Below, piece after piece: positions 55,731 through 64,000 of a stretch of DNA of 64,000 bases. The stretch covers positions 565,133 through 629,132 of the forward strand of contig NZ_KB913017.1 of NCBI RefSeq assembly GCF_000383975.1, read 5' to 3'. The notes beneath the pieces were generated by a model. It was not told the DNA's origin and ran no database searches. It saw only the letters and a list, made by a program, of their open reading frames with translations. The translations under genes were made by a program, and so were the position numbers. Each line of letters starts with the position of its first letter. Positions within the stretch are counted from its first letter, which is position 1. Source of the DNA: Natronorubrum tibetense GA33 (GTDB taxonomy: Archaea; Halobacteriota; Halobacteria; Halobacteriales; Natrialbaceae).

Positions 55731-56945
55731 CTACTGCGAAGGGATATCGTCCGTCGAATCGACGCTGACGCGATCGTGGATGTGCCCCTCGCGGGTTCGC
55801 AGGTGATCCGGCGTCCGGTCGTTGGACACCGAAAGCACCTCCGCCACGATACTGTGTGCGATCTGGTAGGGTGAACCGCCGCCGAGATCGAGACCCATCG
55901 GCGTGTACAGCGACGACAGCGCCGCGTCGTCGAACGTCGTCCCCTCGCTCTCGAACGCCTCGACCATCTCCTCGAATCGCTTGTGTGGCCCCATCAGCCC
56001 CACGTACGGAACGGGCGAGTCGAGCAACCGTTCGACCGTTAGCCGATCGTCGACGAAGTTGTGCGTCATGACGACCGCGTACGTGCAATCGTCGAGATCG
56101 ATCGCCTCGTCGATCGAGGCTGGCGACGTCGTCACCGTCGCGTCGGCGTCGGGGAACCGCGCCTGGAGATCGACGCTTCCGCGAAAGCTGACCACGGTAA
56201 CCCGGAAGTCGTTCTTCGCGGCCAGTTCGGTGACCGGCCCGACATCGTGGCCGGAACCGAAGATGACCAGCTCCGTCGGGGCCGCGAGACCGTCGATAAA
56301 CACCTCGAGTTGCGTACCCGAAACGTCGAGTTCGACGGTATCGGCTCGGCCGCGCTCGGCGAGATCGGCCGCTGGGCCCGTGAGTTCATCGGGCCACGCC
56401 GTCGCCGGCTCGCCGTCCGGCGTCGCGAGGAGTCCTTCGTCGGGATGGTAGTACGCCCGATCGCCGCGAGCGAGGAGCGCGTCTCCGCCATCTCTTCGGT
56501 CTCTTCCGTCCCCCTCATCTCCCCCGTCCCCGCCCTCGAGCACGGTGAGAACGGCCACGCTTCGACCCTCGTCGAACGCCTCGACGGCCGGCCGGTAGGC
56601 GTCGGTCAGCGGCTCGAGCAGGACGTCGATGATTCCGTTACAGCCGACGCCGAGGCCCCAGACATCGTCGTCGTCCTCCATCAGATCGTACGTCACCAGC
56701 TCCGGCCGGCCGCGTTCGCGAACCGACTCCGCCGCGACGAGCAGTTCGTCCTCGAGACAGCCGGCCGTAATGCTGCCGACGCCCTCGCCCGCTTCGTCGA
56801 GGAGCATCTTCGCGCCCGGCCGCCGGTAGGCGTTCCCCTCGACGTCGACGATCGTCGCGAGGACGTCGGTCCTGTCCCCATCGAGTCGTTCGTGAACGCG
56901 CTGTACCACCTCGGTTTCCGGAACGCTCCAGTTACTTCGTGTCAT
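55731..56945 (-). CDS. XdhC/CoxI family molybdenum-enzyme maturation protein
   Basis: A 404-residue protein. The N-terminal XdhC domain has LATIVDVEGNAYRRPGAKMLL and SITAGCLEDELL with the conserved Cys near 63, and GVGCNGIIDVLLEP. The C-terminal Rossmann domain begins ELVIFGSGHDVGPVTELA and has YVGLMGPHKR. XdhC proteins bind molybdenum cofactor and insert or sulfurate it into xanthine dehydrogenase-type enzymes. It is the last gene of the cox-type operon and its start overlaps the stop of the DUF364 gene by 4 bp. Confidence 0.85.
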   Translation of the reverse strand: MTRSNWSVPETEVVQRVHERLDGDRTDVLATIVDVEGNAYRRPGAKMLLDEAGEGVGSITAGCLEDELLVAAESVRERGRPELVTYDLMEDDDDVWGLGVGCNGIIDVLLEPLTDAYRPAVEAFDEGRSVAVLTVLEGGDGGDEGDGRDRRDGGDALLARGDRAYYHPDEGLLATPDGEPATAWPDELTGPAADLAERGRADTVELDVSGTQLEVFIDGLAAPTELVIFGSGHDVGPVTELAAKNDFRVTVVSFRGSVDLQARFPDADATVTTSPASIDEAIDLDDCTYAVVMTHNFVDDRLTVERLLDSPVPYVGLMGPHKRFEEMVEAFESEGTTFDDAALSSLYTPMGLDLGGGSPYQIAHSIVAEVLSVSNDRTPDHLRTREGHIHDRVSVDSTDDIPSQ

Positions 56946-57940
56946 TGGTTCGAATCGCTCCCATCGGTCGTTTCGCTCCGCCGCTCGCTTCGTCTCGTGC
57001 GTTCGTTCGCCGTTGCTGGTCCCCGTAACCCCCGGTCCAGGTCGGCGACGCCATCGGCTACCGTATACACCTTCCGTACGCCGGCGTCGTGCAAGTCAGT
57101 TCCGCACGCCCCACCCCGGACGGCCTCGCGAACCCGATCGGGAGCGACCACGTCGGCCCCGGCGACGACGTCAACACCGGCCTCGAACATTGGTTCCGGA
57201 AGCCCCGACGCCGTCGCGCCGATCAGGACGACCGCCGCTTCCGCCGGTGCGGCCTCGAGATACCGCTCGAGACCGCCGTAGACGAACACGGAGCCGGTGA
57301 TGAATACGACGTCCGCGTCGGCCATCGCCGCGGTCGCTTCGGTCGGCCGGAACGTCGTGATGCGCACGTCGTCTGGCGCGGAGATGGGGCCGACATCTCT
57401 GCGTTCGATCACCCGAACGTCCACGTCCGAGAACTTCCGGAATGCGGGTCTGAAGACGCCAACCGTCGCGATCACGTCTACGCTCGGATCCAACAGCGTC
57501 ATCGGATCCCCGGTCCGCCAGTCGACGAACGGCGCAGACAGTGCGTTGATCGTAGCGACGCCCAGCGCGATTCGAAGCGCGGTGTCTCCGTCCGCCATCG
57601 CGTCGCTACGGGTCGATTCACCCGTCTCGGTGCCGTCACCGTCGCGATCCGATTCATCCCCCGACTCGTCGGGCTCCAGTGTCGCCCACCGGAGGAGCGT
57701 CTCGAGATCCACGTCGTCGGTCGACACCGGCTCCCCCGACGGTCGGTGGGCAAGCCCGGTCGTCCGTACTCTCTCGTCAGACTCCGTGAGTTCGGGTTCG
57801 GAACGGACCGCTGTGCAGACGCCGGCCAGTTCGACCAGCACCGCCGCCTTGCCGATCGTCACGCGCTCCACCGTGACGCCCTCTGTAATCCCGCGACTAC
57901 GGAGTCGGTCGACGATGGCCGGTCGGATGAGGTCGATCAC
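56942..57940 (-). CDS. DUF364/DUF4213 putative metal-chelation domain protein
   Basis: A 332-residue protein starting with GTG at 57940 (overlap with the VWA stop). An N-terminal DUF4213-like domain (VERVTIGKAAVLVELAG...) precedes a Rossmann-like DUF364 domain: DPSVDVIATVGVFRPAF, VRVIERRDVGPISAPDDVRI, ADVVFITGSVFVYGGLERYLEAA and VLIGATASGLPEPMFEAGVDVVAG. The Pfam name 'putative heavy-metal chelation' comes from structure and is unproven. It sits within the CO dehydrogenase maturation operon between CoxE and CoxI, so it probably takes part in cofactor or metal delivery. Confidence 0.75.
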   Translation of the reverse strand: MIDLIRPAIVDRLRSRGITEGVTVERVTIGKAAVLVELAGVCTAVRSEPELTESDERVRTTGLAHRPSGEPVSTDDVDLETLLRWATLEPDESGDESDRDGDGTETGESTRSDAMADGDTALRIALGVATINALSAPFVDWRTGDPMTLLDPSVDVIATVGVFRPAFRKFSDVDVRVIERRDVGPISAPDDVRITTFRPTEATAAMADADVVFITGSVFVYGGLERYLEAAPAEAAVVLIGATASGLPEPMFEAGVDVVAGADVVAPDRVREAVRGGACGTDLHDAGVRKVYTVADGVADLDRGLRGPATANERTRRSERRSETTDGSDSNQ

Positions 57941-59388
57941 TCACGATCACCCCCGCCGTCGGCGCTCTCGACAGCGGATCGCCTGCGCCGGGGATCGTGC
58001 TCGAACCCAACCGGGCCGTCGATCCCGTAGCGCTCGAGCTGTCGCGTCGCCTCGTCGAGATCGGTTGGCGTCGCGAAGCCGAACAGCGCATCCACGTAGG
58101 GGAGGGCGGTCGCCATTCCCCGCGACCGCGGCTCGTACGCCGGCGACACCGCGAGCGGGTTGAGCCAGACGAGCGCGTCGGCCCGGCCCGCGAGCCAGGT
58201 GACGCTCTCCTCGAGGATCTCCTGGTCGCCGACGTCGAGCCCGTCGCTGATGACGACGACGACCGTTCGCCGATCCACCGCGTAGGGATGGCGTCGCCGG
58301 AGTGCATCGAACGCGTCGCCGATCCGCGTCCCGCCGCCCCACTCGATTTCGGCGTCGCGCAGCGCTCCGGCGGGGTCGCCGTCGGCTCGCGCGAACTGCT
58401 CGGTCGCCTCGACGAGGTCCGTGTCGAACAGGAAGACGGACGACCGCCGCGCGGTGGCTTGCAGTCGGTCCGCGACCGCAAGCAGCGTGTCGCGGTCGAT
58501 CGTGTCCAGAACGGAGCCGCTGACATCGATCAGCAGACAGCAGTGGAGTTCGCTCGGCACCCGCTCGCGGGTCGGGAGGTCCACCGCGGTGCCGCCGGTC
58601 CCCAGACTGGCGCGAAGCGCACGCCGGGCGTCGATCCGATCGCCGGTGGCGGCGAGGCGCGTTCGGCGGCCGGGAATCGTCGACAGCGCGTCGAGAAACC
58701 GATCGACTGCGGCGGTCTCGTCGGCAGTCAACGGAGCCGGCGTCGCTTCGACGGGTTCGCGCCGTCCGACGGCGCTGTACAGCCGCGCGTCGTCACCGTC
58801 GTCGCCGTCGGACTCCGGCCGCTCGCCGGTCGCGTGCCTGCGACCGGTCGCGAGACGGACGTCTACGCTCTCGGCCCCGTCGTCCGATTCCGGCGGCGGT
58901 GGTTCCGTCTCCGATGGCACGTCCGATCCCTGTAGCGACGCCGCGTGACGATTCGACTCGTCGGAATTGCCGCCGTCTCGCGCAGGCGAGTCGTCGTGTG
59001 TCGAAATCCGATCGATCCCGGTCCGCAAGCGGTGCCAAAAGGTCGGGAACTCCGCGTCGAAAACGTCAGTATCGGCCGACTCCGTGAGCAGAGTCGCCCG
59101 AAGCGCGTCGGCGGCGACGCCGCGATCGGCGAACCCGACCACGGCGAGCGCTCGTGCACCCTCGAGCGCCCCACTCGCCGGGACGCTAGCGCCCTCGCGG
59201 CGGAGTCGACCCACGAAGCGAACGAGTTCCGTCAGCACGTGTTTGCGCGCCGCCTCGAAGTCCGGGGCCGTGTGACGGCCCGGTGGTTGATCGAGTCCGT
59301 CGTCGTTGGACTCGGTTTCGAGTTCGGCCTCGGTCTCGAGTTTGCCTGCATCCCCCTCGGCCTCGGACGGGTTCCGGCGCGGCGTCAT
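57937..59388 (-). CDS. coxE: VWA domain protein, CoxE-like
   Basis: A 483-residue protein from ATG 59388. The N-terminal half is partly disordered and acidic. The C-terminal VWA domain carries the MIDAS motif LLIDVSGSVLD (Asp288-x-Ser290-x-Ser292), ETDxx and a VVVISDGLDVGDQ segment. It belongs to the CoxE group, which works with a MoxR ATPase (CoxD) to mature CO dehydrogenase or related molybdenum enzymes. Its ATG overlaps the MoxR stop (ATGA). The frame continues upstream to 60207 only by chance over the MoxR gene. Confidence 0.85.
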   Translation of the reverse strand: MTPRRNPSEAEGDAGKLETEAELETESNDDGLDQPPGRHTAPDFEAARKHVLTELVRFVGRLRREGASVPASGALEGARALAVVGFADRGVAADALRATLLTESADTDVFDAEFPTFWHRLRTGIDRISTHDDSPARDGGNSDESNRHAASLQGSDVPSETEPPPPESDDGAESVDVRLATGRRHATGERPESDGDDGDDARLYSAVGRREPVEATPAPLTADETAAVDRFLDALSTIPGRRTRLAATGDRIDARRALRASLGTGGTAVDLPTRERVPSELHCCLLIDVSGSVLDTIDRDTLLAVADRLQATARRSSVFLFDTDLVEATEQFARADGDPAGALRDAEIEWGGGTRIGDAFDALRRRHPYAVDRRTVVVVISDGLDVGDQEILEESVTWLAGRADALVWLNPLAVSPAYEPRSRGMATALPYVDALFGFATPTDLDEATRQLERYGIDGPVGFEHDPRRRRSAVESADGGGDRE

Positions 59389-60434
59389 GGGTCGGGCGCG
59401 TCGGTTCGGTCGCGAGCCGCTGTCGCGGCGTCGCGAAGTCGTTCCAAGAGCGAGCCGTCGATCCGTTCGACATCCTCGACTTCCTTGAGCAGGCAGCCGA
59501 TTGTGCGCTCGATTTCGTCCGCCGAGAGCGACTCGCGGTCGCCTTCGGCTCGCAGTGTGGCCACCGCTCGAGCCCAGTCGAGCGTCTCGGCGACGCCGGG
59601 CCGTTTGAGGAACGATTCCTCTCGCAGGCGTTCGACGACGGCGCACACTTCGGCCGCGATCGCGGCGTCGAGCTCCGGCACCTTGCGGGAGACGATTTCG
59701 TACTCCGTCTCGAACGACGGGGGCTCGACGTGCAAGTAGAGACACCGGCGTTTGAGCGCGTCGCTCAGTCCGCGGGTTCGGTTCGACGTGAGGACGACGA
59801 TCGGCGGATTCTCCGCGCTGACCGTCCCCAGCTCCGGAATCGATACCTGATAATCCGAGAGGAGCTCGAGCAGGAAGGCCTCGAACGCCTCGTCCGCGCG
59901 GTCGATCTCGTCGATCAGCAGGACCGGCGATCGGTCCTCCCCCGCGGTGAGCGCGCGCAGGAGGGGTCGCTCGAGGAGGTACTCGTCGTCGAACACGGAG
60001 CGTGGTCGGTCGGCGTCCGACCCGGAGCTGTCCGGGGTGTCCGTCGCGTTCGACGCGTTCGGTCCATCCAGAGCGCCCGAATCGGCCGTTCCGCCCTCGA
60101 CCGCCCCCGTCGCGCCGACCCGTCCCTCGTTCGACTGGACCGCGAGCAATTGTTTCGTGTAGTTCCACTCGTAGAGCGCGTTTTCGGCGGTCAGCCCCTC
60201 GTAACACTGGAGCCGAATCAGCTCCGTCTCGAACCCCTCGGCGAGGACTTTCCCCAGTTCGGTCTTCCCGCTGCCGGGCGGTCCCTCGACGAGGAGCGGC
60301 CGCCCGAGTTGCAACGCGAGGTACACCGTCGTGACGAGGCGGTCGTCGGCGACGTAGTTCAGTTCCTCGAACCGCTCGCGAAGCGTGGATTCCGAGACCG
60401 TATCGAACGCGATAGTCGGCGTCTCGTCGGTCAT
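59385..60434 (-). CDS. coxD: MoxR AAA+ ATPase, CoxD-like
   Basis: A 349-residue ATPase. Walker A is GPPGSGKT at 51-58 and Walker B is VLLIDEIDRAD at 171-181, with a VVLTSNRTRGLSDALKRRC sensor-1/arginine-finger region and a C-terminal helical lid. An acidic 40-residue insertion (about 105-145, GATGAVEGGTADSGALDGPN...) separates the two Walker motifs. In Oligotropha CoxD is needed to mature the Cu-S-Mo active site. It overlaps the neighbours at both ends: ATG with the XdhC-YHS stop and TGA with the CoxE start. Confidence 0.9.
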   Translation of the reverse strand: MTDETPTIAFDTVSESTLRERFEELNYVADDRLVTTVYLALQLGRPLLVEGPPGSGKTELGKVLAEGFETELIRLQCYEGLTAENALYEWNYTKQLLAVQSNEGRVGATGAVEGGTADSGALDGPNASNATDTPDSSGSDADRPRSVFDDEYLLERPLLRALTAGEDRSPVLLIDEIDRADEAFEAFLLELLSDYQVSIPELGTVSAENPPIVVLTSNRTRGLSDALKRRCLYLHVEPPSFETEYEIVSRKVPELDAAIAAEVCAVVERLREESFLKRPGVAETLDWARAVATLRAEGDRESLSADEIERTIGCLLKEVEDVERIDGSLLERLRDAATAARDRTDAPDP

Positions 60435-61636
60435 GGTGATGTCAGTTCCTCGTCTTCGACCGCCTCGAGATAGTCGTCGGGATCGGTCCGGAAGCTGTCG
60501 GCGCAGCCGTGACAGCAGAAGTGGTAGGTCGCCCCCTCGTGCGTGACGCCCGGCGCGTCGGCGGGATCGACGGTCATGCCGCAGACGGGATCGACTGCCG
60601 ACTCGTCCGTCACGTCGTTCGGGTCGTTCACGCTGTCCGGGTCGGTCGCTCCGCTCGTCGCTGTTTCGGTCTCGCTGCCGCCACCTCCGCAGCAGGCGTC
60701 ACCCCCTCCATCGCCGGCGTCGATGGTCGTTAACGCGTCCTCGAGACCGCCCGCCTGATGGGACGACCCCGTCACCATCCCCGTGTCGGCCCGCACGTCG
60801 ATCAGTTCGGCGAGCACGCTCGTCGCAATCTCCGCCCCCGTTTTAGCCGAGATATCGACGCCCGCGGGGTTCGTGATCGCGTCTCGGACCGCGTCGGGTT
60901 CTTCGTCGAGGAGCCCCGCGGCCCGCTCGACGACCGTCTCAGCGCGCGCGTCGCTCGCTACGAGCCCGATGTACGGCGCGTCCGCGAGAACGCCCGCCGC
61001 GACGGCGCGAGCGTCGTACTCGCCCATAGAAGCCGCGACGACGAACGGTCCGGGGCCGACGGATTCGGCGATCGAGTCGGGCTCGAGCGTCGAGAGCACC
61101 GTCACATCCGGTGGAACGTCTCCTCCACCTCCTTCGGGATCGACGACCGTCACGTCGACGGCGAGTTCGCTCGCCAGTCTGGCGAGCGAGCGTGCGATAG
61201 GCGACCCACCCACCACGAGGAGTTGCGTTGTTGGAATCACCGGCTCGATAAACACCTCGAGGGTACCCTCGCTCTGACACGTCATCGGAAACGCCTCGAG
61301 TCCGGGGCGATCGATCTCCGCGGGATCCGGTGCGAGACCGATCAGGCGGGGCTCCCCGTCGGCGATGGCCGCTCGAGCCTCGCTCTCGACCCGCGACTGC
61401 GCGCAGGCCGCCCCGCCAACCCAGCCGACGAGGTCGCCGTCGGCCGTGAGGAGCGCCCGGTCGCCGACGTTGGCCGACACCGGCGCTTCGCGGCGGACGA
61501 CGGTGGCTCGGGCGTAGGGCGTCCCGCACTCGGCGAGCGCTCGCTCGCGCTCTGCGAGTTCGCCGTCGCTTACGGCGTCGGCTCGGTCGGTCGTCGACTC
61601 GATGTTCGTGGTCGCGTGTGATGTTTCTTCGGTCAT
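60431..61636 (-). CDS. XdhC-like protein fused to a C-terminal YHS domain
   Basis: A 401-residue protein. Residues about 30-115 are the XdhC domain (ARATVVRREAPVSANVGDRALL, GGAACAQSRVE) and residues about 130-290 a Rossmann-like XdhC_C domain (QLLVVGGSPIARSLARL). A Gly/Cys-rich linker (DACCGGGGS) leads to a YHS domain from 349: DPVCGMTVDP...YHFCCHGCADSF with Cys352, Cys374, Cys375 and Cys378. YHS domains are metal-binding and often accompany copper proteins. CoxF/XdhC handles the molybdenum cofactor. The fusion joins both functions next to coxL. ATGA overlaps the MoxR gene. Confidence 0.85.
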   Translation of the reverse strand: MTEETSHATTNIESTTDRADAVSDGELAERERALAECGTPYARATVVRREAPVSANVGDRALLTADGDLVGWVGGAACAQSRVESEARAAIADGEPRLIGLAPDPAEIDRPGLEAFPMTCQSEGTLEVFIEPVIPTTQLLVVGGSPIARSLARLASELAVDVTVVDPEGGGGDVPPDVTVLSTLEPDSIAESVGPGPFVVAASMGEYDARAVAAGVLADAPYIGLVASDARAETVVERAAGLLDEEPDAVRDAITNPAGVDISAKTGAEIATSVLAELIDVRADTGMVTGSSHQAGGLEDALTTIDAGDGGGDACCGGGGSETETATSGATDPDSVNDPNDVTDESAVDPVCGMTVDPADAPGVTHEGATYHFCCHGCADSFRTDPDDYLEAVEDEELTSP

Positions 61637-61771: not shown

Positions 61772-64000
61772 TCAGTCGTCCGCCGCCTCGTCGCTCGACT
61801 GCACGTCGAACTCGAGGGCGACGTTGTCGGCGGGATCCATCGAGAGGCCCGCCTCGTCGAGTTTCTCCCAGACGACGTCGGGCGTCATCGGCATCTCGAC
61901 GTGGCTGATCCCGCCGTGGGCCATCGCGTCGACGACGGCGTTGACGATGGCGGGCGGCGAGCCGACCGTCGGCGACTCGCCGACGCCCTTCGCGCCGATC
62001 GGGTGGTGGGGCGACGGCGTCACGGTGTGGCCGGTCTCGAACTCCGGAATCTCCATCGACGTGGGGAGCAGGTAGTTCATAAAGTCGCCGCCAGTGACGT
62101 TGCCGTTGTCGTCGAAGGTGACGTGCTCTAGCATCGCCGTCCCGATCCCCTGGGCGAGTCCGCCGTGGATCTGGCCCTCGATGATCATCGGGTTGATCCG
62201 GTTGCCGCAGTCGTCGACGGCGACGAACTTCTCGAACTCGACCTCGCCCGTCTCGCGGTCGATCTCGACGATCACGATGTACGAGCCAAAGGGGTAGGTC
62301 ATCTCCGGCGGATCGTAGTAGTTGACCGCCTCGAGACCCGGATCCTCGCCTGCCGGCTTGTTCATGTACGCGCCGGCGGCGATCTCGGTGATCGTGATCG
62401 AGCGGTCCGGCGCGCCGGCGACGTGGAACTCACCGCTCTCGCGGTCCCACGCGATGTCCTCCTCGGCGGCCTCGAGTTCGTTGGCTGCGATCGCCTTCGC
62501 CTTCTCGCGAACCTTTCGCGAGGCGACGGCCGCCGCCGCGCCGGCGACGGGGGTGCTCCGGGAGCCGTAGGTTCCCAGGCCGTACGGATCGGTGTCGGTG
62601 TCGCCGTGTTCGACGGTGATGTCGTCGACGTTCATGCCGAGTTCCTCGGCGACGATCTGAGCGAACGTGGTCTCGTGACCCTGGCCCTGCGTCTGGACCC
62701 CGACCCGGACCGTCGCGTTGCCCGTTGGGTGAACTCGAATCTCGGCGGAGTCGAACATCTCGACGCCCGCGATGTCGCAGGTCTTTCCGGGACCCGCGCC
62801 GACGACTTCGGTAAACGAGGAGATGCCGATGCCGAGCAGTTTGTCGTCGTCCTCGTCGATCCGACGCTGTTGTTCCTCGCGGTAGTCGTCGTAGTCCGCC
62901 ATTTCGAGGGCGAGATCCAGGGCCTTCTCGTAGTCACCCGAGTCGTAGTTCCACCCGGTCGAACTTTCGTAGGGGAACTGCTCGGGCTGGATGAAGTTCT
63001 TCCGTCGGATCTCGGCGGGATCCATCTCGAGTTCGTCCGCGAGGACTTTCACCATCCGTTCGATGAGGTAGACGGCTTCGGTGACGCGGAACGAACACCG
63101 ATACGCGACGCCGCCCGGGGCGGTGTTGGTGTACGCCGCTGTCAGTGAGCCATAGGCCGTGTCGATGTCGTAGGATCCGGTGAAGATGTTGAAGAACCCG
63201 GCGGGGAACTTCGACGGCTGGGCCACGGCGTTATATGCCCCGTGGTCCGCGAGTACGTCGGTTCGGACCGCCAGAATCTCACCGTCTTCGGTCGCGGCGA
63301 GTTCGCCCTGCATGTCGTAGTCGCGGGCGAACCCGGTCGACTGGATGTTCTCCGAGCGCTCCTCGACCCACTTCACCGGCTGCTCTAAGACGTACGACGC
63401 CGCGGCGGCGACGACGTAGCCCGGATAGATTGGCACCTTGTTGCCGAACCCGCCGCCCACGTCCGGGCTGACGATCCGAACCTTGTGTTCGGGGATCCCC
63501 GAGACCTGCGAGAACAGCGTCCGGTGGATGTGGGGGGCCTGCGAGGTCATGTGGACCGTTAGCTTGTCCTTGCCGGGATCGAAGTCGCCGACCGCGCCGC
63601 AGGTCTCGATCGGCGCGGGGTGGAGTCGCTGGTAGAGCATCTGCTCTTTGACCGTGACGGGGGCCTCGTCGAACGCTTCCGCGGTGGCCTCCTCGTCGCC
63701 GGTTTCCCAGTCCAGACAGTGGTTGTCCTCCTGGCCCTCGATATCGTCCCTGATCAGCGGCGCGTCGTCCTCGAGCGCCTTCTCCGCGTCGACGACCGGA
63801 TCGAGCACGTCGTAGTCGACGACAACCTTTTGCGAGCCGTCTTTCGCCGTGTACCGGTCGGTCGCGATGACCGCGGCGACCTCCTGGGACTGGAACTTCA
63901 CCTTGTCGTTGACCAGGACGTCCTGCGTGTCGTCCATCAGCGTCGGCATCGTCGCAAGATCGTACTCGAGTAAGTCCTCCGCGGTCAGGACGGCGACGAC
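61772..64000 (-). CDS. coxL: Aerobic CO dehydrogenase large subunit, form I (partial)
   Basis: 742 codons to the stop at 61772; the 5' end lies beyond the window (about 60-70 residues missing by family length). It is a xanthine dehydrogenase-family molybdopterin subunit. The form I CoxL signature AYRCSFR is at 63086-63106 with the copper-ligand Cys codon at 63095-63097. Further family motifs are QTQGQGHETTFAQIVAEEL, YGTYGSRSTPVAGAAAAV and GAKGVGESPTVGSPPAIVNAV with the catalytic Glu. It oxidises CO to CO2, passing electrons via FAD and Fe-S subunits that would be encoded to the right. Confidence 0.9.
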   Translation of the reverse strand, partial: VVAVLTAEDLLEYDLATMPTLMDDTQDVLVNDKVKFQSQEVAAVIATDRYTAKDGSQKVVVDYDVLDPVVDAEKALEDDAPLIRDDIEGQEDNHCLDWETGDEEATAEAFDEAPVTVKEQMLYQRLHPAPIETCGAVGDFDPGKDKLTVHMTSQAPHIHRTLFSQVSGIPEHKVRIVSPDVGGGFGNKVPIYPGYVVAAAASYVLEQPVKWVEERSENIQSTGFARDYDMQGELAATEDGEILAVRTDVLADHGAYNAVAQPSKFPAGFFNIFTGSYDIDTAYGSLTAAYTNTAPGGVAYRCSFRVTEAVYLIERMVKVLADELEMDPAEIRRKNFIQPEQFPYESSTGWNYDSGDYEKALDLALEMADYDDYREEQQRRIDEDDDKLLGIGISSFTEVVGAGPGKTCDIAGVEMFDSAEIRVHPTGNATVRVGVQTQGQGHETTFAQIVAEELGMNVDDITVEHGDTDTDPYGLGTYGSRSTPVAGAAAAVASRKVREKAKAIAANELEAAEEDIAWDRESGEFHVAGAPDRSITITEIAAGAYMNKPAGEDPGLEAVNYYDPPEMTYPFGSYIVIVEIDRETGEVEFEKFVAVDDCGNRINPMIIEGQIHGGLAQGIGTAMLEHVTFDDNGNVTGGDFMNYLLPTSMEIPEFETGHTVTPSPHHPIGAKGVGESPTVGSPPAIVNAVVDAMAHGGISHVEMPMTPDVVWEKLDEAGLSMDPADNVALEFDVQSSDEAADD

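Follow-up and report, generated by a model that had tools for sequence, protein, structure and literature searches.

CoxF with a C-terminal YHS domain in the form I CO dehydrogenase operon of a haloarchaeon, a candidate for the copper delivery step of enzyme maturation

How does copper get to the [CuSMoO2] site of aerobic CO dehydrogenase (CODH)? CoxF has been implicated genetically in this step, and its own copper site has so far been a guess. In Oligotropha (Afipia) carboxidovorans OM5, coxE and coxF mutants have a copper-free CODH whose molybdenum is partly sulfurated, and MCPSHG was proposed as the copper site of CoxF (PMC4240915). Loss of CoxE also removes CoxF in this bacterium, and vice versa (PMC4240915), so the copper phenotype is not assignable to CoxF alone. 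Here, we analyzed a stretch of 64,000 nucleotides from Natronorubrum tibetense GA33 (the window), in which a gene next to coxL joins XdhC domains to a YHS domain. A first-pass annotation of this DNA had read the product as a molybdenum cofactor (Moco) inserter fused to a Cys-rich YHS domain, one factor for both metals of the form I active site, and had added that no such role has been shown. The latter statement is only partly right because the copper role of CoxF is already published; for the YHS part it stands, as no paper pairing "YHS domain" with "XdhC" was found and none of the CoxF papers found mentions YHS, in a search that left most subscription journals outside. The fusion itself, its restriction to form I CODH, and its ligand set appear to be new.

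A three-domain protein within a form I cox operon

The gene occupies exactly one open frame with an ATG start, and all three domains of its product pass the Pfam gathering thresholds, the YHS domain (PF04945) with 45 bits against a curated cut-off of 30.3 (Table 1). XdhC and a Cys-rich YHS domain are thus confirmed to reside in one protein, and Cys352, Cys374, Cys375, and Cys378 all lie where the first-pass annotation had placed them. The same architecture is kept in 26 other haloarchaeal genomes of our sample; since the frame is single and the arrangement is conserved in 27 genomes, a fusion by chance, frameshift, or assembly artefact was ruled out. Both in sequence and in fold, the Rossmann domain matches 2we7 and 3on5. 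The AlphaFold model has an overall pLDDT of only 60 and was therefore relied on for the folded YHS domain and the low-confidence linker alone; a pLDDT of ~90 over the former and <50 over residues 276 to 343 is in keeping with a folded module tethered through about 65 residues.

The gene run reads coxG-like, coxM, coxS, coxL, coxF-YHS, coxD, coxE, DUF364, coxI, and an ornithine cyclodeaminase-family gene, with coxF-YHS starting 135 nt downstream of coxL. The latter scores 1,224 bits against the TIGR02416 cut-off of 991, indicating form I, and together with its AYRCSFR motif this bears out the proposed adjacency to a form I coxL. CoxI of this operon has neither the CoxF motifs described below nor a YHS domain, and its product probably serves the operon as Moco factor, a role inferred here. 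The DUF364 gene between coxE and coxI is kept in most haloarchaeal form I clusters, with no annotated copy in the bacterial cox clusters viewed. The coxS gene, also on the minus strand, immediately precedes coxL and falls outside the window; form I CoxS in 25 of 28 haloarchaeal genomes (window genome counted) ends in a Cys-rich tail, CG(V/A/L/R)E(N/D)CCGGP or near, and among the CoxS examined from bacteria and of the form II type, none was found to have it. A CCGGG motif resembling this tail occurs in the CoxF linker of some members of the Natronorubrum group (60689-60694 in the window, residues 315 and 316).

Table 1. Features of the coxF-YHS gene and neighboring cox genes in the window
Feature	Coordinates	Strand	Basis or remark
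coxI, ordinary XdhC without YHS	55731..56945	-	Pfam, motifs, tree
DUF364 gene, "putative heavy-metal chelation"	56942..57940	-	Pfam; neighborhood comparison
coxE, VWA protein, 483 aa (from ATG at 59388)	57937..59388	-	PF05762
coxD, MoxR-type AAA+ ATPase	59385..60434	-	Start overlaps coxF stop by 4 nt
CoxF-YHS fusion protein, 401 aa	60431..61636	-	Single ORF; Pfam XdhC_CoxI + XdhC_C + YHS; CoxF clade
YHS domain, aa 348-392	60461..60595	-	Pfam, E 1.1e-11; pLDDT ~90; conservation in 32 CoxF-YHS sequences
Linker, aa 279-347, probably flexible, including CC at 315-316	60596..60802	-	Low-confidence model
XdhC_C Rossmann domain, aa 139-278	60803..61222	-	Pfam, E 8.7e-19
CoxF-specific motif M118-T-C120-Q-S-E-G	61265..61285	-	Alignment with O. 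carboxidovorans CoxF MCPSHG
XdhC_CoxI domain, aa 36-99	61340..61531	-	Pfam, E 7.9e-12
CoxF-type GWVGGAAC motif, aa 71-78, inside XdhC_CoxI domain	61403..61426	-	
coxL form I, 3' part (5' end beyond window), AYRCSFR	61772..64000	-	TIGR02416; motif

CoxF identity and distribution of the fusion

Phylogenetic analysis including the window protein yielded one CoxF clade (support, 100/99) that contains O. carboxidovorans CoxF and stands apart from CoxI and other XdhC, and a larger tree from which the window protein was left out agrees on a separate CoxF clade. Two motifs, GW[IV]GG..C and MxCxSxG, are diagnostic of CoxF, and both are present in the window protein. Its MTCQSEG aligns with the proposed copper site of O. 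carboxidovorans CoxF (M107-CPSHGTM), at a position where CoxI and the other XdhC examined have C-G-G, C-N-G, or similar. The window protein also sits in a CoxF context, a form I cox cluster including coxD and coxE, and, within the plasmid collection, the XdhC closest to it come from form I clusters, O. carboxidovorans CoxF among them. Compared to the window protein, O. carboxidovorans CoxF shares clade, partners, both motifs (the second as CxSxG), and form I CODH but has only 280 residues, without linker or YHS domain, and its gene follows coxE rather than coming directly after coxL. Chaperones of the XdhC/CoxI/PaoD type likewise have XdhC_CoxI and XdhC_C domains but carry a C-[GN]-G-type motif in place of MxCxSxG and fall in another clade. 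Judged from its sequence, the window protein is the CoxF of a haloarchaeal form I CODH operon with a C-terminal YHS extension. Identity as a generic Moco inserter was ruled out by the tree and the CoxF motifs, and the first-pass assignment of the XdhC half to that role is not supported, as the protein falls in the CoxF clade and the operon separately encodes an ordinary XdhC, CoxI. Another haloarchaeal XdhC type consists of open frames of ~600 residues (loci L079, L080, L081, and L083); plasmid records matching it are annotated as YqeB-related molybdenum cofactor proteins.

Among 292 Halobacteria genomes, form I coxL (scored over the cut-off) and CoxF occur in an identical set of 28, and 27 of the 28 CoxF, window included, have the YHS domain. 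In the 27 form I loci retrieved besides the window, no CoxF is farther than 300 bp from a coxL with the AYRCSFR motif. A cluster of form II (genome G271; AYRGAGR) has CoxI, CoxD, and CoxE and no CoxF. A scan of the genome contigs with a single protein as the query matched seven haloarchaea. Are XdhC-YHS fusions equally common away from form I coxL? All 27 haloarchaeal fusions adjoin it, and no YHS domain was listed within 3 kb of any of the 137 non-CoxF proteins among the 150 haloarchaeal XdhC_C matches listed, a count that very weak cases may escape (27 of 28 CoxF against 0 of 137, Fisher p ~4e-30, relatedness ignored). The proposed link of the fusion to the form I (Mo-S-Cu) enzyme is hence supported by its distribution among sampled genomes. 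The sole sampled form I haloarchaeon with a YHS-less CoxF (genome G020, locus L078) has no YHS match at an E value of ≤1e-6.

Bacteria were sampled through the plasmid collection only, where all XdhC-YHS fusions seen adjoin genes for CODH large subunits. Those of Natronorubrum bangense (a haloarchaeon in the same collection), Thermomicrobium roseum, and Paraburkholderia stand beside an AYRCSFR coxL, and that of Caballeronia stands beside a CoxL match from which the search did not recover the motif. The T. roseum protein (TRD_RS11740), annotated merely as "XdhC family protein," has the same three domains directly after a form I coxL but is bacterial, has a shorter linker, and lacks coxD and coxE in the annotated stretch beside its gene. 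CoxF of Deinococcus sp. AJ005 (locus L019, 8865-8999) has a degenerate YHS-like tail that has lost the equivalents of Cys352 and Cys374. No YHS domain was found on CoxF of Nonomuraea, O. carboxidovorans, or the other alphaproteobacteria examined, and the alphaproteobacterial loci examined, that of O. carboxidovorans included, have no separate YHS gene. Because the domain is degenerate in Deinococcus and absent from O. carboxidovorans, the other alphaproteobacteria examined, and G020, it is not indispensable; with several CoxF proteins lacking it, it is therefore accessory to CoxF function, not core, and an essential part in CoxF was ruled out by the YHS-less proteins of O. carboxidovorans and G020. 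From these comparisons, the domain is dispensable or replaced in the YHS-less lineages. Its presence and absence require 4 changes on the tree (3 to 4 in bootstraps), compatible with either an ancestral fusion with losses or repeated gains.

Predicted metal ligands of the YHS domain

The four-Cys site of the first-pass annotation holds in part. The 28 aligned haloarchaeal YHS domains (the 27 above and that of N. bangense) all keep Asp349, Cys352, Cys374, and Cys378 unchanged. Two relatives (L076 and L077) have Gly in place of Cys375, which rules out a site of the four cysteines, and Asp349, at a position that is Asn in the betaproteobacterial copies, belongs to the set instead. By analogy, the metal ligands of CoxF-YHS are likely Asp349, Cys352, Cys374, and Cys378, with Cys375 replaceable. 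All four coincide in position with the Asp-Cys-Cys-Cys ligands that have been proposed in the YHS domain of a Mycobacterium phlei adenylyl cyclase, an enzyme that in the presence of Mg is activated by 1 to 10 µM copper and by no other transition metal tested. The Asp-x-x-Cys ... Cys-x3-Cys pattern recurs in copper-transporting P-type ATPases, in their YHS/TRASH domains, as it does in the M. phlei cyclase; the window copy, whose ligands are predicted, differs in being joined to CoxF rather than to a transporter or a cyclase.

Copper delivery and its alternatives

What might a tethered YHS domain do on CoxF? The simplest reading of the sequence is that it would give this CoxF a better copper-capturing site, and we consider it probable that CoxF-YHS consists of CoxF and a tethered module that captures copper for delivery to the sulfurated molybdenum site. 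CoxD would sulfurate the molybdenum site first, the YHS domain would capture copper through its four predicted ligands, and the copper would be handed on, possibly through the CoxF motif M118-x-C120, to the sulfido-Mo center of apo-CoxL, with CoxE acting together with CoxF-YHS. What is inferred in this scheme is that this YHS domain binds copper, by which route the metal is transferred, and in what order the haloarchaeal steps follow.

The same tethered module could instead be a copper sensor or gate that switches CoxF activity or its contact with CoxE or CoxD, allowing loading only when copper is available, with the inserted copper coming from elsewhere, e.g., from CoxF MxC. We regard this as unlikely, though it draws on two observations, namely, that the M. 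phlei cyclase YHS domain is a copper-responsive regulator and not a donor and that O. carboxidovorans, and probably also G020, has a CoxF that works with no YHS domain. The strict link to a copper enzyme, however, is just as compatible with a donor; nothing in the present evidence tells sensor and donor apart, and sequence by itself does not separate copper delivery, regulation, and docking. An extension of the delivery reading casts CoxF-YHS as a copper chaperone dedicated to form I CODH, working in a haloarchaeal Cys relay with the CoxS tail, which would serve as copper acceptor or as a dock for CoxF near the molybdenum site, with DUF364 maybe a further partner; this extension is speculative, and we give it less weight than the sensor.

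That one factor handles both metals, a Moco inserter with a copper-binding module attached, is more doubtful still. The XdhC fold is common to Moco chaperones, as the matches to 2we7 and 3on5 reflect, and CoxF has been suggested to protect the sulfurated molybdenum site as well (PMC4240915). However, CoxF forms its own clade with the XdhC signature changed to its two diagnostic motifs, the operon encodes CoxI as a separate XdhC, and the O. carboxidovorans apoenzyme is described as having its full set of cofactors, with coxE and coxF mutants affected in sulfuration and copper (PMC4240915). The first-pass proposal to this effect thus went unsupported, the XdhC half being a CoxF whose ortholog is genetically tied to copper insertion.

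Least probable of all is a structural, zinc- or iron-binding, or protein-docking tail with no copper role. A YHS domain need not bind copper, or any metal: in a crystal, the four Cys of the ribosomal L24e TRASH domain hold Cd, the YHS domain of toluene hydroxylase crystallized without metal, and one bacterial CoxF YHS copy is weakly similar to MYM/FCS zinc fingers. However, the fusion is restricted to CoxF of a copper enzyme in the archaea and bacteria sampled, and heavy-metal P-type ATPases make up much of the remaining YHS set in the plasmid collection.

Returning to copper delivery, the fusion, present in archaea as well as bacteria, gives CoxF a domain of a type associated with copper and occurs only beside a copper enzyme in the sampled genomes. 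The presence of CoxF serves as a sequence rule, agreeing with that of form I coxL genome by genome in this sample, and the small soluble YHS domain with its four named residues offers a target for tests of copper binding and transfer. Overall, these comparisons make CoxF-YHS a candidate for the copper delivery step of CODH maturation.
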